Assembly (NCBI RefSeq): GCF_008831285.2
Contig: NC_045146.1
Location: forward strand, 5,652,972-5,716,971
Direction of reading: 5' to 3'
DNA length: 64,000 nt
Source of the DNA: Nymphaea colorata
Taxonomy: Eukaryota > Streptophyta > Magnoliopsida > Nymphaeales > Nymphaeaceae
This document shows, in pieces, positions 3,181 through 63,024 of this stretch (position 1 is the first letter of the stretch; each line of letters starts with the position of its first letter). A model generated the notes under the pieces. That model saw only the letters and a list, made by a program, of their open reading frames with translations, did no database searches and was not told the DNA's origin. The position numbers were made by a program, and so were the translations under genes.

Positions 3181-6100
3181 AGGAGAAGGAACTGATCAGT
3201 CATAGTCAACCAGGACTGCCTCTGTCCATAAATTCCTTATGTATTTAGAAACAGAAACATGCCCATGTTTAGAGAGATGTTTTACTACTTCTTGCATCTC
3301 CACGAGATCAAGGAATCCCTTAGAAACACACAAAACTAGTAGTTGAGAGTCTACTATTGGGATCTCCTCTCCAATGTGTCTGTATATGTAATTAAGTTAA
3401 ATATAGATGAAGCAAAAAGTAAGATTCTCTTGTTGATTGTGTTCTTGATGTATTTGACTATTCTTATGACTGCACCCATGTGAACTATGGTAGGTGCTTG
3501 TTGAAATTGACTAGAACATGCATGATATGAGACATTCTAGGACATGTGCTACTCAAATATGAAAGTGCTCCTACAAGTTGTTGATATGGTGTGGGATCGT
3601 CTAGCAGTTTCCCATCATCTCTTCTGATCTTCACTTCAAGTACCTTAGAAGTCTATACTATCTTCTCATCTGTCAAACCTGATCTTTCAACAATATCTGC
3701 AACAAACTTTGTTTGAGACAAAAAATATCCTTTTTGAAAAACATACTTCAATGCCAAGAAAGTATGTCAAAAAACTTAAATCAATCATGTCAAATTTTTC
3801 TTTCAAGGTTTGCTTAATTAAACTTGCCTCTTTATTATCACTACTTGTGATTATCATATAATCAACATAAAGAAGAAATATAACAATATCTTTGTTTGTG
3901 CTTTTGACAAAAAGTGCAGTGTCAGAGTAGCATGATTTGAAATTGCTTTCCATAATCACCTGAGCTATCGTGCATATCACATTCATCATCTAATGCATAA
4001 ATAGACATCAAATCATTCAAGAAACCATAATCAATATCATGTTTGGATATCTTTTTCTCAAACCCTTTTTTCTATTCACGAAAAGCCACATTTCTTGAAA
4101 CGTAAAGCTTATTCTTTTTCAACATTGTAACATCTATATCCTTTTTTACTCTCAGAGTAACTAATGAATACACATTGCAAAGCTTTCAATGAAAGTTTGT
4201 CTCCTTAATCGTTAAGAATAAAACATTTAGATCCAAAAACTTTAAGTCGGTTGTAGTCGGGTTCAAGATTATACAGTTTTTGAAAAGGATACATTTTGTC
4301 CAAATTTTTTGAAGGCATTCTATTACTGAGGTAGACAGTAATAAACACTGCTTCTGCCCAAAGATTTTTCAGAACTTCCATTGCTAGAAGAAGAGTATGT
4401 AGTTTCTATGCTATGACGATGTTTCCTTTCTAAAATTCTATTTTGTTGTGAAGTTCTTGGACAAGATTTCTAGTGTTCAATACCATTTTCTTTCAAATAG
4501 TTTTCAAAAGCTTTCAAAGTGTATTATCTTCTGGAGTTGGGTTTAAAAATTTTTATATCAATTTGGAATTGTTGATCAGTTGATGAAAGTTCTTGAAATT
4601 TACAAACACATCAGATTTATGAGTTAGAAAAAAATTCACGCATATCTAGTATAATAATCAACAAATAGGATATAGTAAGAATAGCCACCTTTGGACATAT
4701 CCGGAGCTGGACCCCACATGTTTGAGTGAACAAGTTCAAAAGGCGATTTACTTACAACAGTTTTTTCACCAAATGGAAGGGACTTCATTTTTCCAAATAT
4801 GCATTCATTACATAGAAGATTTTCATTACATGCATTCTTCAAAAAAGGAATACATTTTATTTTTTCATGACTAGTGTGCTCTAGTGTTTGATGTCATGTG
4901 AGAATATCATTTGCTTTCCAGTATTACAAAAAGAGTGTATTAAATCCAAAAATTTCATGTAATAAAGATCTCCTCTTCTAACTCCTTCCCCAATCGTCCT
5001 CTTTGAGACTTGATCCTGTATCCAACATTTATCTTGTGAGAAAGCAACTTTGCCACCATGCTCAGCAATTTGGGATACATACAACAAGTTCAAGTTCAAT
5101 TTCATTATTTGTCTAACATTGGCTATTCTAAAAGTTTTTGAGTTTTTATCATGTTTTTTCAAAATCTACAATACTTTCTATTTTCAAAGAAGTACCATCC
5201 GCAGCTGAAACAAAGTAAGGAAATGAGTTTGTATTAGATTTAAAAGTTTATTTTTGTGAGGTGTCATATGGAATGAAGTTCCGGAGTCCAAAAGCCAGGC
5301 AATATTACCTTGAGTTGCAGCGGTAATAGCTCCAATAGTAGAAGTACCTCCTTTGAAATAGGGCTGCAATGCTTCGGCAAGTTCTACAAGAGAGAATCCT
5401 TGAGCAGTCCTTTGATAAGAACTTTCAGTTGTAGCTTTATTTTCAGCAACAACTGGTCTTTATCAAGTATCCTTAATTTTAGGCATTTAGGTTTAATATG
5501 CCTAGGTTCATGACAATGAAAGCAAATAATTTTCTTGCTAGTATCCTCATTATTTTCCCAAAATAAGCAGATCTATAATTCCTTACGTGATTTCCTAGAT
5601 TTGAAACTGCTAGAACACTATCAATTGATTTCCTTTTCCTTATAGTGTATAAGCCGATTCTCTTCCATAATAAGTTCATTCAAGGCCTCATTCACAGTAG
5701 AAACAGTTGGCCTGTGAAGTAAAGACGACCTTGCAATATCAAACTTAGACCTTATTCCCATAAGACAATGATAGAACTTGTCCTCTTGAATCAGTTTATC
5801 TCTAAGTAAGATATCTTCGGGATCCTTCCATTTTGGTTCAAAGACAGATAATTCATCCTACAATTGAGAGAACTCTCCATAATATTCTTGTATGGACTTG
5901 TCTCCTTGCTGCAATTTAGAGATTTTTACTTAGAAATTCCATTTATGTGCCGCAACTTTCATTGTATGTGTCTCTTTCAAGTAATTCTATGCTTCATGGG
6001 CCAAATCAAATTTAGCTAACTGGACACTAACGATAGGATCCATGCTGTTTAACGAAGACATCACCCTGTGATGATTGGTTTTCCATTCTTTCCATTTTTT

Positions 6101-15929: not shown

Positions 15930-16375
15930 GTGGGTATCGGGCCAGGCCGGCCAGCCCGGGTCTCGTTCCGGGCCCGGCCAGCCCGGGTCTCGTTTCGGGC
16001 CCGATCCATTTAAATTTAAAAAATATTTTTTAATTATAAATAACATTTTTAATATAAAATATATTTATTAAGAATAAAAACTATTATTAAAACAAAAAAA
16101 TTTTTAAAAAATATTTTTTTATTTTACAGGGCCTAAACGGGCCGGGCCGGGTCTCTTTCTGGGCCCGGCCCATTTAAATTAAAAAAATATTTTTTAATCA
16201 TAAAACAACATTTTTTAATATAAAATGTATTTATTAAGAATAAAAAATATTATTAAAACCAAAAAATTTTAAAAAAATATTTTCTTTATCTTACCGGGCC
16301 TAAACGGGCCGGGCAGGGCCAACCCGGGCCTAGCTGTCGGGCCCGAGCCGGCCCGGCTCGACACCCTGCCTTAGC
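15930..16375. repeat. GC-rich/AT-rich compound repeat with ~164-bp duplication
   Basis: Blocks of GGGCCGGGCC-like sequence alternate with runs of AAAAATATTTTTTAAT. A unit of about 164 bp is present twice (marker CATTTAAATT at 16007 and 16171). A 28-bp GC-rich piece beginning GCCAGCCCGGG is itself doubled at about 15950-16003. The outer ends are both GC-rich and partly complementary (GGGTGGGTATCGGGCC near 15936; GAGCCGGCCCGGCTCGACAC near 16345). It resembles a widespread plant dispersed repeat and has no coding content. Confidence 0.6.
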
Positions 16376-37111: not shown

Positions 37112-37357
37112 AAACAAGATATTATTTTAAGCGATTGCCAATAATAGAAAGAAACACAATATTTTAATGAATTATTTTCTTAAGTTAGTCGGTAAACAAG
37201 ATATTATTTTAAGTGATTGCCAATAATAGAAAGAAACACAACATTTTAATGAATTATTTTGTTAAGTTAGTCGGTAAACAAGAAATTATTTTAAGCGATT
37301 GCCAATAATTGAAAGAAACACATCATTTTAATGAATTGTTTTGTTAAGTTAGGTGGT
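37112..37357 (+). repeat. Three-copy tandem repeat, 82-bp unit
   Basis: Units begin AAACAAGA(T/A)ATTATTTTAAG at 37112, 37194 and 37276, giving an exact 82-bp period. The copies differ by only a few substitutions. No coding content. Confidence 0.92.
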
Positions 37358-48519: not shown

Positions 48520-51500
48520 ATGTCCTCTGCTCCCACGGCTGATCGAAACCCAACCCAGAAATCAGTGGAGGAGCCAGTGAGTCAGTGGACCGGAAGGAAA
48601 AGGCATTCCGACTCCAAGATGCACAGAAACAAGGACTCGGCGTTCACCCGGGCGAAAGGAAACCGGAATCCGTCGTTGTCCTCCGCCATGGACTCCGGAC
48701 TTACTTGGGGACGCCGCGGCTCCTCCTCATCGCAAGGTTCTGCCAGCGAAAGAGAAGGCGAACCGGAAAGCCTCCCCTTCGTCGTCGGGAATTGCCCCGA
48801 TATGTGTCCTGGTACTCCGTCTATGTCTCTCCTTCCTGAAAGGCCTTAGAATAGTTCAATAATGCTATGGTGGTCCATTTCTAATTCTAAAGCTTATAAT
48901 AGCTTAATAAGTGTTATAAAACTTGATCATTTCTCTGTTCTGGCGTCGTGTTATATCCTAATCTTAATTTGGAGAGCCAATTGAATACATTTGATCTAAT
49001 TTATAGCCAGGGAAAGGGCTGAGCGCGAACGACTTAGAGATTTAGCTGTCTTTGAGAGATTTTACGGCAATCCGCGGAAGACTTCATCAAGTCTCGCTGT
49101 GAAAAAGGTAATGATGCTTCCGTCTTTGTTAAGACTTCTTCAGTTGGTATCTCATTTTACTTGAAAAAAAAAAGTGTTAGTGCTAGTTACTCGTACGGCT
49201 CAACAGTTCCAAGGTTGGTGAAAATGATCGATTTTGATAACAACCTTGGTGGGGGTACATGGTTGCTGTAAGATGCTGGTCGTAGAATTCAGTGGTGGAA
49301 ATTCAAGTTCCTTTGGCAAGATTAGCTTTTTATGAAGAAAAGTTTTAAGAAGATAATGCTAATATATTCCCTTTTTAATACTAACCAATTTGTACAACGC
49401 ATTTGTTCTAGTTGAAACATTCAGTCTTGAAATGCAACAATGGAAGCCCATTGTAGACTTTGAAAGTTGGTGAGTTTTCCTTGACCAATCTTTACTCTGG
49501 ATCACCATGACTTGACGTGTCTCACATGTTTTGTGTTTTCACCTGCCCACAAGTGTCGAGGTGCTTGCATGCGATGTTGATCATGTTTCATCGTTGTTGG
49601 GTTTTTTACATGATCCTAAGCATTCCGTTTTTCTGTATTTTTCTTGCTTAATTGACTAACATTTGTCATGTTGCTAATAAAGCGATCCTTAAAAAATGAA
49701 AGCCTGAGATAAATATATGTACTTCATTTCGCTAACTCATTGTGGATATATTTTTCTAGTTAAACAAGTTATTATTCATTTCCTCGTCTGTTGGTTGAGT
49801 TTACAACTTGCATCCAGTCCATGGATAAGCTCTCCCATTTGTGATGACATTCTACAGTTTTTATTTTTCCTGCAGTGCTTGTGAAACAAATGGTAATGTC
49901 ATTTTCTTATTGTCTTCAAATATTGAATGCATTAAGAGGCTGATTCTCCATTTATCACTAGTTTTGCAGAACTATCTCCTCTGTTCATGTGCATGCATCC
50001 GACATACGACCTCTTCCTGTGTTGCAAGATACATTGGCTCACCTTTTCAACCTGCTGGAATCATCAGACCAACCTTTTGAAGTTGTCCATGAATTTGTAT
50101 TTGATAGGACAAGGTCTATTAGGCAGGATCTTAGCATGCAGAATATCAGCGGCTATGAGGCAGTTGACATGTATGAACAAATGGTAAAGATCTTGACCAA
50201 ATTATAGTTGAAACGTTGCTGTCATAAGTTTTCTGTACATTGTTATCTTCAACTACGTTTATTGAAACCATCCTGTATCTTTTGTGCTATGTATTGGTTT
50301 TTCCCTTTGTGATTTTAAATTTTCATTTGATATTGTTTTATGCAAATATATACATGTGTTGGTGCATCGTTCTCTTGATTTAATAGATTTTCTACAAGCA
50401 GAGGGTTGGTCACAGGGTTCAGTGATTCCTTTTAGTTCGTCTTGCTTAATTTCCAATAAAATGTGTCTTATGCAGGTTATGTTCCACATCAAATCTCACC
50501 ACAAACTTTTGCAGCGTGAAAATGTCAGCACTTCTTCCATGCACTACCTCAACTTGGAGCAACTGAAAAAATCCTTGAAGACTCTGTATGATCTGTATGA
50601 TGTCAATAGAAGCTCAGGTTTTGTTAGCAAGCATGAAGCTGAATTCTACTCATTTCACGTGCTCCTGCATCTTGGTTCTAATTGTCAAGCAACGGTGAAG
50701 CTTCCATTCTAGTGAAATTTTGCAGGCCTTGTTACTCAGGGACATGTGTAGGACCAGCCCCTATTTTAGGCTAATCCAACTACCCCTTCTTTAAATTCAT
50801 ATTTATATGTGGTTTTTTTGTAAGATTAGTTGTGTAGATGTTATCTTCAAATGCAAAAGTTCAGGAATCTACACAAAAAACTATAAGTTTCATGAGGGTT
50901 TAAAAATCATGGCCTGTAGGTTTTGGCATATAGAACTCTATGTGGTTATCTGAAAACAAAAAGGTTGTCGGTTTTGTAAGTTGTGAATATAAAGATTAAC
51001 ACCTACATACTCAAGATTATGAGAGTTAATAAGACGGCCATTTTGGGGATAGGTCGTACTCATTTCTGATTTCTCTGTTACTTGAAGCATAATCTGTAAT
51101 CGAACTTGTCATTTTCAGGGTGAGTCACTTGCTACATGGTTTTGGCGATTGGAGCCTCATCTTCTCAAGTCCAAGGATCTTTCTTTTGTTAGGAGCGTCT
51201 TGCGGTATTGTGTTATTCTGCTTGTTCCTATTGAACCTATTTAAATTTGAGATTCTTTTGTTTGATCTTTCTGTTTTAGTAATTTCAGTATGCTAGTGTT
51301 GTCTTTTTCCTCTTTTAAGAAAATAAGATTGTTTGTGTCACATGGGTATGGCTATCGGTTTGTAGCGTGAGATAGGTACAGCTGGTATGATGTGTTTCTC
51401 AAAAGAGTGCCGGATACGTATGAGAGAGGGAGAGAGCACAAACATATTATGTGCATACAATTTAAGATATATAACCAACAAGCATCCAGCACTGCACCAT

Positions 51501-54600: not shown

Positions 54601-54672
54601 AGCCAAAAACACCAGTGTGTATCCAGATTGGGCTAAAGATTTTTGTCTGAAGCCAGATATGTATACTCTTAG

Positions 54673-55009
54673 CCTATATGACATGGGTACGTGAGATTTG
54701 CTTAGGTACCCATGTCAGTATGTGGGTACGGCAACACAGGCAGGTTGGTACAGCTGAGTATGGCTGTATTTTAAAACATTTAAAATTATATTTTCAAACT
54801 TAATTTTTTCTTTAATTTGACTTTTCCCTTCCACTAAGACTATATTTTCCTCTTATTTTTCTTTAATTTGGAGATTATTTGTAGATTTATATAATATGTA
54901 TTTACATGTACACTCTGCCATACCCCGTGCTTAAGTTTTCTAAAATCATCGTTCCCGTATCCGCATTTTTTATACCAGTACCTGTATCGTTCCTGTGCCC
55001 ATGTGACAT
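54673..55009 (+). mobile_element. MULE-like MITE, family member with perfect 9-bp TSD
   Basis: A 337-bp element flanked by exact TACTCTTAG (54664-54672 and 55010-55018). The left end is CCTATATGACATGGGTACG; the right end reads ATGTCACATGGGCACAGG on the minus strand. The right half parallels the element at 58292-58736, in the order of a TACCC-type word, AAGTTTTCTAAAATCAT and CCGTATCCGCA. The 9-bp duplication suggests Mutator ancestry for the whole family. Confidence 0.8.
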
Positions 55010-55018
55010 TACTCTTAG

Positions 55019-57453
55019 ATGCTTCATAAGTCCAACCCTGTTCCAGTATCACCTCAGGACAAGTTTGCCGGACACCCTACTGAGCTTGGGAAATGGAAAG
55101 CAGCTTATCTTGATATACTTTGGTTTCTGTAAAACCATATTTTCCAAACAATAATGTCGAAACAGAGCTTCAATTGCTTGCATCAATTTAATAATTTTCT
55201 GGTTTGAAATTAATCTTTATCTATTTTTCTTTCTTAAAGAATTACTTTTAAATATCTCTTACCAATTCACAACTGATTAGCTGAATCTTTTGACTAGCCG
55301 ATTCACCAATTCAATTGCCTGGCAGATTTGATTGTAAAAGTGATTATGATGACCTTACCTGATTCCAAACCCCCAAAAAATAGATATTGTTTAATAGCCT
55401 TGTATCAGAGACAGCATAAAAAGGCATGCATTGTAAGATCCTCAGTTTGTTCAGTCCGAAGATTTTAGTGGCATGGATCTTAAAAGATGGTGGATTTAAG
55501 GTCAGTTTTTGGAGAGGTCCGGCCTTGTTAGGGATGTGTTCCGTTCTTAAATCTATGAATTTAAAATCATGATGATCTCAGATCACCGTGGCTTTCAGAT
55601 CTGCAACATCCAGTGAATGCAGATTTGCAAGTTTAAAGTATTTTCGCATAAGAACGGTTACAAACCCGAGCACTTTCAAATAGATATCTCAACTAACTTA
55701 CAAAATCAGAAAAATTCAGTTTCTTGTTGAGTTGTGAATCCCAACTTCAAAGAGGTTTGAATATGGTGTAGTATCCAGATTCTTACCGAATGTGCTTTGT
55801 ATTGCATTCTGAAACAGCCGTAATAAAGCTTATTCAGAAAATTTGGCATCCAGATCCTCGGCGGAACTCCGACTAGGCTTTGGTCCTCAGTTCTTATATA
55901 CTGACGCTGGTTGTAAACCATGCATAGTCAAGCTATAAGCAGCGTCATCTTGAGCCATTCTCCGCCCACCCCCATGGTGCTGGCCCCTCTTGGGGGCTGC
56001 CCAATAACATTATTGGATACCAAGGCTGTTGCTCCATGGAACAAAAGTACTGAGTAATGAATCAGTTATGGAAAAGGCTTCATCCTCTGGTTTTGAAAGG
56101 CCTCTCAGTTTTACCAAAAAAAAAAAAAATCAAACAGCTTGAAAATGTCAGGACTGCACAGACCTGACCACAGAGTCCGGCCCTAAGCTTCCGTGCTGGC
56201 GTCTACTACAAAGTTTTGCACTAAGAGGAAGCTGACGCAAAGATGGTTCAGCTGACGGTACTCTATGTTCCATCCCCAGTACCCTCCCACTCTTTCATCA
56301 GTGAGATTGCATCTGCAGCAGCAATTTCACATCAAATAGTTGGAACTCTTGATGTGGAACTCCAGTTCACCCTCATTTTTCGCTGTTTAATGGTAGTTCT
56401 GGACAAACTTTGAAAAGAAACTTGAGATGTTCGTATGCGGCCGTGGGGTTCAAAGGCTTACAGACAAAATTTCAAACTCAGTCCAGTATCTAAATGCTCA
56501 AGAAATCTGACTTCACCTTTTATAAAGTCCGACGCTAAAAAAGGAAGCTGTCTGAACAAGACCCAATTCCAGTGTGGAGATGCAATCATGGAAGCATATT
56601 AAACTTAACAATATAAGTACAAAAAGAAATAAGATTCACGAAAAAATTTGGAAGTAAAAAAAAAAAACCCTCTCCATGATCCAACGTGAAGGTTGATCAC
56701 CAAGATGTACACTAAATTTGAAACTTGCTAGTCAACAGCATCTTCGAACCCAAACTGGAAAGGTTACCTTAATAAAGTACAACACACCCTTCCCCTTTTT
56801 GCTGCAAACATACAGATAGAGCTGAACTACGAGAAACTAAGAAGAGGTAGTAACTAACGGTTCTTGTTTCAATAACGAGAATCCAAGATAGAAGATAAAA
56901 ACTCTTATCGTTACTTTCTAGCTTGCATACTATGACTAAATAATACCAATGATCGTATGATCTTTAATTTTAATTGATCAGCTCCTTCAGAAGAAGTTCG
57001 TCGGCATGATAGCATTTTAACCAGTGATACCTTTTACCTAAACAAATCCCCCACTAAACCGAGCAGTATCCCTTATTGTATGGTGTAATTGCAGAGAATC
57101 CTTGGCTCCTTTTGAACACCATCAAAATCAGGCATTTGATATATTGGCACAAGATACTTTCAGTTGCAGTTATTGTTTAGATTCACCGCTTTGAAGTACA
57201 GAGACAAGAACAGTTCTGGATAAATGTTATTAAACCATGAGAAATGGACAAAAAAGCAAAAGCTATCAAAATTGCAAAATAGTACCACTAATCAAAACTT
57301 GTAAGATTACACATACAGCAGAAGAGAATTAAGAATCTATATCCCCAGACGAAGAACAGTTCCCAAAATAGGAGATTGAGAATTATAACCACACAAGATC
57401 CATAAGATGGAATTGGTACCGCAAGAACGACTCAGCGTTTGAATTCAGTACAT
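55019..57453. other. Intergenic sequence and 3' UTR of eEF1B
   Basis: No gene recognised. The right-hand few hundred bases adjoin the eEF1B stop codon and should contain its 3' untranslated region (minus strand). No single polyadenylation signal stands out. Confidence 0.4.
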
Positions 57454-60400
57454 CTAGATTTTGTTGAAAGCAACGATGTCACAGCTCTGAATGTATTCAT
57501 TTGCTGGTTCGACAGTGAGGTGATCTTCTATGAGAGTGTCAACAGACACAAGGTCGTCCACAATAGTCATCATGATCTGCAGCTTCTTTATACCATAACC
57601 AACAGGGACAAGTTTTGCTGGGGACAGAAAAACAGGTTCAGCATCCACCCTTTCATGGAGAGAAAAAAATTATAACAAGGGGAAGGCAAAGGAGGAAAAG
57701 CAAGTAAAAAAAACCATACATGCACCCCATAGAAGACCAGGCATTTCGATGCTGCGAACAGCCTCTTCAAGCTTCTTCATGTCAGTCTCATCATCCCATG
57801 GCTTTACATCCAAAAGAACCGAGGATTTTCCACCTGAAGTTGCCAGGAAACAAAAAAGAAATCTGAACAGTGGAACAAAAGCACTGGCAACACATTTGAT
57901 GGACATTAAGAATGCGTAAATCTAACTTAATCAATAAAATTAGCACCACTTAGGTGTAAAACACTAGAGAGTAGAAAAAGGTATTTGTAAATTGAAACTA
58001 CTTTCCTTGGCTAACATAACCAGGTCTCTACCATCGACCTTGATTTTAATCTTTTCTTAGACAAAAACAAACTTAAAGTCCTTGAGATACAACCAATTGA
58101 GAAATATCTTTGGGCATTATGATAATCAATAAACAACAAAGAGGCAAGAAGATCCTACTCTCTTTTTTCTTTGAAGAAGCTTTGACAGCTGCCTCACGTT
58201 CTGCAGCTGCCTTCTTCTCATCCTCGGTCTCATCTCCAAAAAGGTCCAGATCGTCATCATTTTCTTCTGGTGCAGCCTGAAAAGTGAAAACCTAAGTCAC
58301 ATGGGTACTTCAGGAAGGTCCACGTACCCGTGTCGCCGTACCCGTACCCAAAATGGGTACTTTGACACATGGGTACCTATAGATCCAAACTGCTTAATTT
58401 TACTTTGATTTAATTTTTTCCACCTTGTTTTTTATTCTATTCTTTGAATGTGAAAATTCGATTGATGTTCATATTTAACTAGGGGGCTGTTTGGTTGTCC
58501 ATATGTTTAAAGTTTTTCATAGGTTTCTTAAACACACTGCTGCAAGAGCCGTTGATATATATTTTCTATGTTATTTATTTGTTTATGTTGATGTATATTC
58601 TTTATTTAGATACATATTTTCTAAGTATTTCTTATTGTTTATATATATATATATACGGCCGTACCCTCCGCACCCAAGTTTTTTGAAAATGGTCAGTACC
58701 CGTACCAGCACCGGCACCCGTACCTATGTGACATAGGTGAAAACTAAACAAACTCAGCTCCCTCTCTCTCTCTCTCTGGCACACATATCTTGTATATATT
58801 TGTCACAATCTTCCCTCCACCCTCCTCCAAAGTCCAAACACACACACATGTATTGCATATATTTTTGGCAAGACTGCAGATGCAGTCTACTTTAGATTTC
58901 AGAATCCAAGTTCTTTTCACCCAATCTCGTGTATATGTATCCACTAAGTCACACGGGTGCAGGTGCGATACGGGTGCGGGTGCGGACACAAAAATTTTCA
59001 CAATTGTGGGATACCCGGACATGGCAAATATTATATTCTAAAAAATGATAAAATGAAAAAAGAACATTAAAAATCATAAAAAATGCAAAAAACATAAAAG
59101 CTTGTGCAAGTTTATACAAGTTTATGCATGAAGACAATGTTTTTTAAATTCCAAAATCTTTGTTTTCCCAAAGGAATCTCATGTTGGTCTAAGTTCTAAA
59201 CTGAATTTGGAATTTAGAAAGACCTGCCATGTCCCGCGTCAGGATCCCCGTGTTGGCGTGCCGACACGGGTACACGCCCTATTTTGAAGTGTTTGTGTGA
59301 CATTGGGTATCCAGCAATACAACATTTACTGTCATTTTTACCAAAAAATATATTGTTTTTATCTTGTCAAACATTGCCTAGTTTCAGCCAAAAAACTTGG
59401 CACAAGTTGAATTCTATAAATTTAAAATCTAATATCCACAAAACAAATCCATTAGATAAGATTTGCAAGCTTGGACTTTATAATTTTGTAAAGCATTCTA
59501 AGAAAGATTTCCAACACAGCAGATGATGATTGACCTTTGTCATCACCCAAGTTACATAGGTATGGGTACAGGTACAGGTTCAGACTATTTTCAAAAAACT
59601 TAAGTGTGGGGTACGGCCATGTAATATATATGTATATATATGTATGTATATGTATATACATGTATATATATGTATCTATATGTATATATATGTATATATA
59701 TATATATATATATATAAACATTCATGATTCATAATTAGATTCAAAAGAAGAAACTATTGAACAAAATATGAAAATAACATGCTGAAAATCCAACATATTA
59801 GCTTTAAACTCTGACGTAAAGTTATATAACTTGTATTAATTACATACATTATTTGAATTGCAGCTATGTATGCGTTTACTGAGTACAAACGATGTAAAAT
59901 AAAATACTAAAACCCTAAATTTGGATCGGAAATGACTCAGTCAAAGTTGACCGAGTCCTAAATCAGACAGATACAGTCCCAGCTACGTTGATTGTATCCG
60001 GTACTGTTTGACAAGTACTCAGGCTATACCCAAGACCGTACCAGTACCAATACTAGTGTTACCTGACTGGTACTGGTACGCTGCCTCTACAGCAGTACCG
60101 ATGTGACAATGGTCATCATTGGCCACGTCAAAGCATAATGGTGAATGGCCTACCTTTATTGCCAGTAAACTACATGGTCTGTCTTGCTGGTGGCAACTCC
60201 ACAATTTGCCGGTTTGGGTACGAAGATGAAGCTAAATAACTTTGGGTTTCTCAGTCCTAATATTTAACAATATGTTAAAAGAAACCTCAAAAGGTAAAAT
60301 ATATTAAAAATTTGGGAAAATGTGACAAAAGAAGCATTTTATCATTTTGGCATTTTCTCAAAATATAGTTATTTTTTTATTTCCCTGTTTTCCTCATTTC

Positions 60401-63024
60401 CTTTTTTTTTTGGCAAAACATAAACATGCACAGACCCACATACAAGAACTTATTCATTTAATATACATTTGTTCAATTTCCAACAAAAGATGATTGAGCT
60501 ACATAGGGATAACTGCATGTATAGCATGTTTAGCTTAGCATGATCCAGGAAGAAAAAAAGAACAACAACCTCTGTGGATTCATCAGGTGCACATACAGGT
60601 GCCTGACCAGCTAGCCTAACTCCAACACTTTTGCCAGGAAACCTACAAAAGATTATCTCTCAGCCACCATGACGCAATACAGAAATAAGGGCAGTAAGAC
60701 ATAACATCACTTTATCATTGCAGTCAGAGAAAGTGATATATTGCACAATGAAAACAGATTATGATACCTGAAAAGAAACATTAGACGAGCATTAATGAAA
60801 TAGGAAGGAACACATAAAGTTCAAAACAAGATCAGTGTTTCATGATAAAGGTCTCTGACAGTCACACTTATACATAATGCTCAATTCTAGTAGTCAACAT
60901 GGATAAACAAAGTTTAATTTTTGAACTTGTACAGCCATATTTTGCAAGATGACTAAGAGTAAACCCTCCAGCTCCTAGTACTGGAACTCTTTCTATACCT
61001 AATCTTCAGAAGATAATTAGTTCCTAAATGCAATGCAAAATTAAAAAAAACTCCATAACAGTTAGCACAAAGATGCAGAAATAGTTTCACTGTAATGACC
61101 CAATGACACAAAAGAGAAAGAAACAATTCATACTTGTTCAAAGGAAAAGTGGTGAAGGGAAGACCGACTATGTCACAAGGGTGCGCGAAACAGCTGCTGC
61201 ACGTGCGTTGATGCAACACAAGTGCTTGTGCAGCTCCAACACAATGCTGGATGCAGTCGACATGCATCCAGTGAGGGGTGAGGGCCAATACTGACCATTT
61301 TAAATGCACAACCAACTAAATTAGCCTTAAAACATACATAAATAAGACTATTAACTTCACCATGCCCGCACCTAAATTTTTTTTTTAAATTGCCACATCC
61401 ACACCTACACCAGCACCCCACACCTATGTGACATAGAAGACTGGGCAAGCTACAAGAGTTTGTAACTATGTCTCCCGACAAACCACCAAACAAAAAGATA
61501 CAATAGTATGAGTGCATGTACAACAGAATTAACTCCATAAAGATAAGAGTCTAGGATTTTGAACAGATATCCCAACAAACCACCAGACACAAAGATGCAA
61601 AAGTGTGAGTGAAAGTACAACAGAATTAACTCCATAAAAAATAATAGTTCTAAGATTTTGAACAGATCATTCCACAGGGGTGGGTATGAAGTATGAACGT
61701 CCAAAAATTTTTCTTATTCTTAATCTCATCAATTTTGTTCTGCTTAAGCTAACTAAAACTGGTAAATCAGATTAGCTCATTTCAAAATACTAAAAGACTT
61801 AACACCGTCTCATCATACAAGAACCAGAAACAACAAGTATGCCAGTCAACCGGGTTTACAACTTTCACTAGGCTCAATATTCTAGACTAAACAAAGCCTA
61901 TTAAAATTTCAATGTGAAAAAAATCCACATCTCTGCTATGGTTGCACACAGTACAAAACATTGATAAAATATAACTTGGCAAAAAAAAACTTTCACAGGC
62001 AGATCATACTATGAGGATAATAAATTTACTGCTCGAGAAGCTAAAGCAATTGAGAACTTCACAGACTTCATCTCCATTACCAAGAACAGACAACCTTCCC
62101 TCTCGGAAGAGTGCAAATGTAGATGACTCCGGCACCAGTTTGAGGCTTCCACAAGCCTTAACATTCTTGGGACACAAACTACTTGAGTCGATATATTTCA
62201 CTCCATATCCCTCCAACTTTTGAATGATCAGATCTGCTCTTCGACCAACAAAATGGGACAAATATTTTCGCCTTCGAGACACTTGGCACCACAATTTCGT
62301 TCCGATGTTTATGTTGACTTCTTTACACGGAAACAAATTAAAGGATGGATCCTCATAACCATGAAATCGAAATCCAAGCACCCAAGAATCAAATCTTCAG
62401 AACTCATCTCCTTGTAGAGAAACTACGGAACCATAATCCACGTAGTCTCGCTAAACGAGAAAAAGTGTCGCACCACGGAAAACAATTCATACAAAAGACC
62501 AAGAGCCCCAAAATCATAATTTCATCACATCAAACGTCAGAAAGGAGTTAATATAACACAGTCGAGAAAATAAAAAATGACCAACTAGCATAGATGAATC
62601 GAAGAACACCAAAGGAAGCGGAGATCAAGGAGACAGCCAAACCTTGCCGACAGGCTCGAAGAGATGGCCTCGTACCACCGGCACACGTTCGGGAACTCCC
62701 CACTTGGCGCCTTCATTACTGCAGCGTACACCCTGATGTCGTCCTTAGTCAGCAGATCTCTGCAACGAGCCAAACAGATTCCTCAGCTCAAATATCCAAA
62801 CAGAGAAGTTAACCAGAGAAACACCAAAGAAGAAGAAAATTAAGCTTCAGTAAACCCAGATAAACTCGGAACAGAAAATCAAAGACCCAAAACTCGACAC
62901 ATCAAGAAGAAGGAAAATGAAGGACTCTCTAGGCGTACCCAGAAATGTAAGTCTTGTTGGAGAGGAACCCATTGAGGTGCTTCAGGCCCGCTTCGGTGTG
63001 GAGATCACAGAAGGTGGCTGCCAT
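57454..63024 (-). CDS. Translation elongation factor eEF1B guanine-exchange subunit (EF-1-beta type)
   Basis: Six minus-strand exons join in phase: 63024-62939, 62759-62643, 60642-60570, 58276-58159, 57833-57720 and 57617-57454. They encode 223 aa (family about 224). All introns are GT-AG. Residues 1-68 form the GST-C-like N-terminus ([37 protein letters not shown]). The acidic hinge is at 96-113 ([14 protein letters not shown]), followed by a Lys/Ala-rich coil. Residues 133-223 are the exchange domain: [36 protein letters not shown], and the conserved end [14 protein letters not shown]. The family recharges eEF1A by exchanging GDP for GTP. The N-terminus, with GDLLTKDDI, matches plant EF-1-beta (eEF1B-alpha) rather than EF-1-delta. 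The first ATG lies 90 nt from a TATA box. Introns 2 and 3 are swollen by inserted elements. Confidence 0.97.
58292..58736 (+). mobile_element. MULE-like MITE in eEF1B intron 3, member 1
   Basis: A 445-bp element flanked by exact GTGAAAAC (58284-58291 and 58737-58744). The left end is CTAAGTCACATGGGTAC; the right end reads CTATGTCACATAGGTAC on the minus strand, 15 of 17 identical. Subterminal GTACCCGTACC-like words recur at both ends. It begins only 15 bp from the boundary of exon 4. No coding frame. Confidence 0.85.
58944..59306 (+). mobile_element. MULE-like MITE in eEF1B intron 3, member 2
   Basis: A 363-bp element flanked by GTATCCA (58937-58943 and 59307-59313). The left end is CTAAGTCACACGGGTGCAGG with GCGGGTGCGG words behind it. 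The right end reads CCAATGTCACACAAACAC on the minus strand, with CCGACACGGGTACACG just inside. It is a diverged relative of member 1. Confidence 0.7.
59548..60111 (-). mobile_element. MULE-like MITE in eEF1B intron 3, member 3 (inverted)
   Basis: A 564-bp element flanked by GTCATCACC (59539-59547) and GTCATCATT (60112-60120), 7 of 9 identical. The left end, CAAGTTACATAGGTATGG, is followed by TTCAAAAAACTTAAGTGTGG and GGTACGGCC. This is the reverse complement of the right end of member 1, so it lies in the opposite orientation. It contains a (TA/TG)n microsatellite at about 59625-59716. The right end reads CATTGTCACATCGGTAC on the minus strand. Confidence 0.7.
59625..59716. repeat. (TA)n/TGTATA microsatellite inside MITE member 3
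   Basis: TATATGTATATA units grade into a pure (TA)n run at about 59692-59716. It is intronic and probably length-variable. Confidence 0.9.
61168..61435 (+). mobile_element. MULE-like MITE in eEF1B intron 2, member 5
   Basis: A 268-bp element. The left end is CTATGTCACAAGGGTGCG; the right end reads CTATGTCACATAGGTGTGG on the minus strand. Imperfect flanks are GAAGACCGA and GAAGACTGG, 7 of 9 identical. Terminal match to members 1 and 2 is clear; the interior differs. Confidence 0.65.

Follow-up and report, generated by a model that had tools for sequence, protein, structure and literature searches.

The 64,000-nucleotide stretch of the Nymphaea colorata genome analyzed here (the window; C9:5652972-5716971 of a 407.8-Mb assembly in 783 contigs) carries, in and around a gene for elongation factor EF-1 beta/delta (EF1B), five separate short elements (E1-E5; 269-565 bp, with ends near CTAWGTCACAYRGGTRC) spanning positions 54674-61436. 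These elements are almost certainly old non-autonomous members, of the miniature inverted-repeat transposable element (MITE) type, of a large family in this plant genome that belongs to the hAT superfamily. An initial annotation of the same DNA had ascribed them to a non-autonomous family of Mutator-like elements (MULEs). Their nature as non-autonomous DNA transposons flanked by duplications was borne out, but the Mutator superfamily was replaced by hAT, because the duplications are 8 bp and not 9 bp long and because elements with the same ends encode a hAT transposase.

All five elements with common termini listed in that annotation were recovered, their coordinates shifting by 0-2 bases once canonical ends were used (Table 1). 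Terminus-like sites with 0-2 mismatches occurred eight times in the window (both strands), whereas 20 first-order Markov sequences predict 0.05. Six of the eight are element ends (the left ends of E1 and E3, and both ends of E2 and E5); the site at 58724 is the near-palindromic right end of E2 read on the other strand, and that at 58360 is subterminal, within E2. More decayed ends were those on the right of E1 and on both sides of E4 (three mismatches each), and on the right of E3 (four mismatches), E2 being the most intact of the five elements. A TA-rich array was found inside E4, at 59619-59716. Two lone end-like sites, at 51333 (TTGTGTCACATGGGTAT) and at 3488, could not be convincingly paired with a second end sharing a flanking duplication, and no transposase match was obtained within the window at E<=1e-3. 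At the canonical ends, all five elements are flanked by 8-bp duplications with at least six identical positions, a level reached by approximately 0.7% of chance 8-mer pairs from the region (200,000 draws). The flanking direct repeats, which had been given as 7-9 bp long, were in this way upheld as duplications (6-8 of 8 positions identical) but not at a length of 9 bp (0-3 of 9; 1, 3, 1, 0 and 2 from E1 to E5, respectively).

Table 1. Positions and flanking duplications of the five window elements, the host gene and the transposase-bearing relatives with the same ends.
Feature	Position	Strand	Length	Description	Flanking 8-bp duplication (left / right copy)	Identity
E1	54674..55011	+	338 bp	Non-autonomous, assigned to hAT; 2.4 kb past the coding end of the EF1B gene	CTCTTAGC (54666-54673) / CTCTTAGA (55012-55019)	7/8
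E2	58292..58736	+	445 bp	Intron 3, 13 nt from acceptor AG	GTGAAAAC (58284-58291 / 58737-58744)	8/8
E3	58944..59305	-	362 bp	Intron 3, opposite orientation	TGTATCCA (58936-58943) / GGTATCCA (59306-59313)	7/8
E4	59547..60111	-	565 bp	Intron 3, opposite orientation	GTCATCAC (59539-59546) / GTCATCAT (60112-60119)	7/8
E5	61168..61436	+	269 bp	Intron 2; orientation weakly supported	AAGACCGA (61160-61167) / AAGACTGG (61437-61444)	6/8
EF1B (EF-1 beta/delta), coding span	57457..63024	-		Host gene; EF1_GNE in last two exons
L017 element			3552 bp	Same ends; transposase frames on the element's minus strand
L070 + neighbour stretch			4219 bp	Transposase frame-broken; left end placed by eye		7/8
C7 element			3453 bp	CTATGTCACACGGATAC at either end, each differing from the consensus at one base	ATGTATAT	8/8

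The pattern CTANGTCACANNGGTNC was searched over the whole assembly, where it matched exactly at 2365 ends (1203 forward and 1162 reverse), whereas the reversed-pattern control gave 0 and 6 exact matches. The length of the duplications was assessed in a sample of 73 stretches of contig C1 (L009-L081; the C1 sample), which takes in 89 ends out of the 100 listed first. Under a stricter consensus the sample held 84 exact ends, from which 41 pairs were formed blind to their flanks, seven other exact ends being the second ends of pairs. For a duplication length of 8 bp, mean identity was 0.765, with 29 pairs at 75% (6/8) or more and 16 perfect, while the means for all other lengths from 3 to 12 stayed between 0.22 and 0.33. 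Length 9, for which the initial annotation had proposed that flanks be scored, was at chance (mean 0.222), with 0/41 pairs perfect and none at 75% or more; one pair reached 75% at length 10, and none did at length 11. The family shows the 8-bp target-site duplication typical of the hAT superfamily. Thirty-two duplications were compared by their left copies, typed by hand: those of 26 C1 copies with at least 7/8 identity, of one composite and of the five window elements. Position 2 was T in 21 of them and position 7 was A in 18, the same pattern as nTnnnnAn, the target preference described for the hAT transposase Hermes (PMC10368747), which is a tendency rather than a rule. The short members are non-coding, numerous, and have ends common to a coding element, as is usual for MITEs.

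Elements with the same ends and a transposase of their own were found elsewhere in the genome (Table 1). Three frames of the L017 element were scanned, of which one matched DUF659 (E 8.5e-43), one matched Dimer_Tnp_hAT (E 2.1e-8) and the third had no match; its open frames do not continue into one another, and the flanks of the 3552-bp element itself mismatch (3/8). Pieces of this transposase were present in 8/73 C1 loci (L017 itself, L027, L028, L042, L065, L070, L072 and L073), L027 and L028 having an identical left flank and looking like duplicates. Stretches were joined in two cases to look for full-length elements (L070 with its neighbour, and L083 with L073), the former giving the 4219-bp element. 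The genome-wide transposase search had 1329 candidates, and the 97 that were scored accounted for 102 matches. Among these matches, 11 rows, on contigs C4-C15, had stop-free frames of 670 amino acids with 58% identity to the query and near-equal scores. One of these 11, on C7 (L084), was looked at, and proved to be an element with a single uninterrupted frame of 668 amino acids. The deduced protein matched DUF659 (E 2.9e-47) and Dimer_Tnp_hAT (E 3.9e-13) in Pfam, and its C terminus matched four PDB transposase sequences, among them two named Hermes, at E values between 3e-6 and 5e-6. According to PMC3985635, hAT transposases, mostly of green plants, are among the proteins covered by DUF659. 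Both the RNase H-like core and the C-terminal dimerisation domain of hAT transposases were found inside same-ended elements. The stop-free frames and near-equal scores of the 11 rows suggest recent activity of that branch.

The structure of the ends pointed in the same direction. Terminal inverted repeats of 17 bp, and the size of the coding elements, fall within the ranges given for hAT elements (10-25 bp and 2.5-5 kb, respectively; PMC8961557). The subterminal words noticed initially were confirmed as GGGTRC repeats over 34 elements (5 from the window and 29 from C1): positions 18-110 of the ends held 152 in 6324 bases (24 per kb), of which 126 face inward, compared with 9 in 8097 bases of middles and 14 in 14822 bases of flanks (approximately 1 per kb). 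Subterminal AAACGG repeats are described as bound by the Ac transposase (PMC3260210), and subterminal repeats as binding places of the Hermes hAT transposase (PMC10368747); by analogy, the GGGTRC repeats are putative binding sites of the hAT transposase of this family. The polarity of the ends of E1-E5 also matched that of the coding elements. The end corresponding to the 3' side of the transposase is the right one in E1, E2 and (weakly) E5, and the left one in E3 and E4, in agreement with the opposite orientations reported before; the transposase-downstream type of end was recognized at the right of E1 and E2, at the left of E3 and E4 and weakly at the right of E5, and the opposite type at the right of E4 and weakly at the left of E2. 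Following hAT biology, a DUF659/hAT-dimer transposase supplied by full-length relatives of 3.5-4.2 kb would bind the inward GGGTRC repeats in the outer ~100 bp together with the 17-bp ends, excise the element and insert it across an 8-bp staggered target, which would give rise to the 8-bp duplication.

Several observations weigh against the assignment to hAT, or at least fit it poorly. Among the 84 exact C1 ends, 36 lacked a partner inside 1.6 kb, and 12 of the 41 pairs had 5/8 or fewer identical positions at length 8; these 12 were left in the count, and include the L017 composite, a duplicated copy in L020, probable mispairings, and L019, where one end had been placed two bases off (by eye). 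For neither L027 nor L028 was a far end located, and joining L083 and L073 yielded C-terminal transposase pieces only, with no convincing far end. The L017 transposase piece by itself had no PDB transposase match, no Pfam zf-BED match was obtained for the N-terminal BED zinc finger of hAT transposases (E<=1 for the C7 protein; E<=5 in the other transposase scan), a CCHC-like stretch being visible by eye only, and, of the two places on C1:0-12.28 Mb that matched the transposase, one is separated from the nearest listed end by 48 kb. Beyond the tip, the left end of E5 and the right end of E3 are unlike the ends of the coding elements, and the left end of E1 is marginal. Finally, the consensus tip of hAT elements carries A as its second base and G as its fifth, a usual rather than defining feature, whereas the ends of this family start with C-T-A-W-G; in 68 ends, which come from elements selected by these same tips, G was found at position 5 in 66 and T at position 2 in 64.

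A non-autonomous MULE family with 9-bp duplications is, even so, scarcely credible as an alternative. Its strongest case is E1, where an exact 9-base repeat, TACTCTTAG, appears if the ends are put at 54673 and 55009. This repeat is better read as CTCTTAGC/CTCTTAGA (7/8) beside element bases TA, its nine bases being explained because E1 ends in TA next to the 7/8 duplication, although in this single element TACTCTTAG may be a genuine 9-bp duplication. Duplications of MULEs range from 8 to 11 bp, so that a length of 8, typical of hAT, is not foreign to them and length alone is not decisive. A Mutator-type MITE of Prunus with 9-bp duplications, Falling Stone (FaSt), is similar in size (349 bp; PMC12071656). 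Against the MULE reading, length 9 was at chance level both in the C1 pairs and in the window elements at their canonical ends, and the transposase within the same ends is of the hAT type. A search for a same-ended autonomous relative with a MURA transposase had been suggested as a check; the relatives found carry a hAT transposase instead, and on C1:0-12.28 Mb, where distances were compared, the 100 listed ends have no MURA place closer than 28 kb, the two found there (150 of 191 MURA candidates scored) being 28 and 39 kb away from the nearest end. The MULE reading was dropped on the basis of duplication length and transposase type.

Recurrent insertion into this locus, as initially proposed, was supported for E1 and E2 by their kin in the genome and is likely for E3-E5, while the clustering statistics did not sustain the idea of a special target. 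For E2, of whose 1310 candidates 40 were scored, 39 other places matched at 91-95% identity, almost all of them over the full length, and these lay on many contigs. For E1 (40 scored out of 326 candidates), 41 other rows stood at 71-86%, with full-length kin elsewhere at 71-77% (best 77%) and one row at C9:5744833, 28 kb beyond the window. No other window element was among the scored genome matches of either. Because closer kin were found elsewhere than in the window, E1 and E2 are, judged by sequence similarity, independent arrivals from different subfamilies. E3-E5 match other loci in the C1 sample, the only one compared for them, and on that comparison they likely arrived separately too. 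An origin of the copies at the gene itself, from a single founder that was tandemly duplicated or hopped over short distances, would be in line with the frequent transposition of hAT elements to linked sites, established for Ac/Ds, and with an excess of neighbour pairs within 2.9 kb on C1 (7 vs. 1.9 expected; 12/5000 simulations as high; 91 elements derived from 100 ends on C1:0-12.28 Mb). Tandem and segmental copies do occur (L020, L027/L028), and the best window match of E4 is E2 (80% over 74 bases). However, each of E1-E5 has its own target duplication, the scored kin of E1 and E2 are spread over many contigs with no window element among them, and E3-E5 also match other C1 loci, which makes a local origin of the five copies highly improbable.

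Whether EF1B is a true insertion hotspot, above the level of gene-rich chromatin, is a different matter. Three exact-end elements fall within 2.9 kb, no triple so tight was found among the 91 C1 elements, and random placement expects 0.68 such clusters genome-wide; yet clustering is a general trait of the family (the C1 stretch has two triples within 6 kb, against 0.09 expected, some C1 triples being perhaps composites or duplications) and the window was selected for its cluster, so that a hotspot is conceivable but unlikely. The family is mildly clustered, and the EF1B locus lies in the upper tail, but was picked for that. The cluster probably reflects repeated insertion into accessible, gene-rich DNA, together with tolerated intronic copies.

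The housekeeping gene mentioned in the initial annotation was identified as EF-1 beta/delta, on the minus strand, since EF1_GNE (PF00736) was matched by two of the three exon pieces scanned, corresponding to the last two exons (the third piece was negative); the first and inner exons, and the intron numbers, were read by eye from translations. Intron 2 holds E5 and intron 3 holds E2-E4. At the 3' end of intron 3 (58277-58300), the E2 duplication makes up part of the pyrimidine tract, and the tip and duplication of E2 may constitute the branch-point and pyrimidine-tract region of this intron. The duplication would then provide pyrimidine-tract bases, with the tip, GTGACTTAG on the gene's strand, at the place expected for the branch point and for a competing AG; if so, a transposon end would belong to the splicing signal of EF1B. 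The broader proposal, that EF1B has been a long-term recurrent landing site for one hAT family and that E2 rebuilt its 3' splice region, is doubtful and is put forward only tentatively. Adjoining E5, a 69-nt direct repeat (61473-61541 and 61570-61638) with 88% identity was observed.

Other arrangements were noted in the same dataset. A composite in L017 (1669-7398; C1:1673668-1679397), of 5730 bp, joins a hAT element to 1.7 kb of Ty3-like sequence, in which reverse transcriptase was matched only weakly (E 3.4e-4, short of the Pfam threshold), and to a MITE of the E2 type. Its two outermost ends alone share a perfect 8-bp duplication, GTTAAACC, the flanks of the component elements standing at 3/8 and 1/8; the whole resembles a macrotransposon mobilized through its outer ends, as described for Ac/Ds. 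Two copies in L020 (3482-3840 and 6890-7225) with a common flank look like a 3.4-kb tandem duplication, and the common flank of L027 and L028 like a segmental duplication with the same hAT element. In the window itself, a GC-rich motif, GGCCGGGCCGGGTCTCG, lies inside a 166-bp unit with 2.1 repeats (15947-16318), and an 82-bp unit with 2.9 repeats (94%) is located at 37112-37352.

No description of the family was found among titles and beginnings of abstracts, Repbase and P-MITE lying outside that search. In a literature search by sequence words of the family, only the 10-letter gtgacatagg occurred among the matches listed, and the 23-base terminal pattern had no match in viral contigs. With 2365 exact ends in 408 Mb, this plant transposon family is abundant; the results reassign it to another class and tie its short members to complete hAT elements of the DUF659 type, one of which has a full open frame, so that activity and target choice become testable in this plant. 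They also illustrate how a single 9-base coincidence can mislead the assignment of a superfamily.

A complete DUF659/hAT-dimer element accompanied by short relatives with the same ends is a known pattern, as described for MarorhAT-10 and, in outline, for Ac/Ds. In the fungus Marasmius oreades, MarorhAT-10 is described as an autonomous element of 3396 bp with DUF659 and hAT-dimer domains, and MarorhAT-4, -11 and -12 as short relatives (597-631 bp) with its ends (PMC9674265); activity was observed in that system, and the likeness to the present family is one of description, not of sequence. The Ds1 and Ds-l4 elements of maize are likewise short, heterogeneous and non-autonomous, sharing mostly tips and subterminal repeats with the autonomous Ac, and produce 8-bp duplications (PMC3260210), but have 11-bp tips and AAACGG repeats instead of the CTAWGTCAC tips and GGGTRC repeats found here, where the transposase core is DUF659. 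FaSt resembles the N. colorata elements in its occurrence near genes as well as in size, yet differs in its 82-bp inverted repeats and 9-bp duplications (PMC12071656). BniHAT-1 and BniHAT-2 of Brassica nigra, compared by description only, are high-copy hAT MITEs with 8-bp duplications (PMC7385995), as in the family described here, although longer (673 and 666 bp, respectively).

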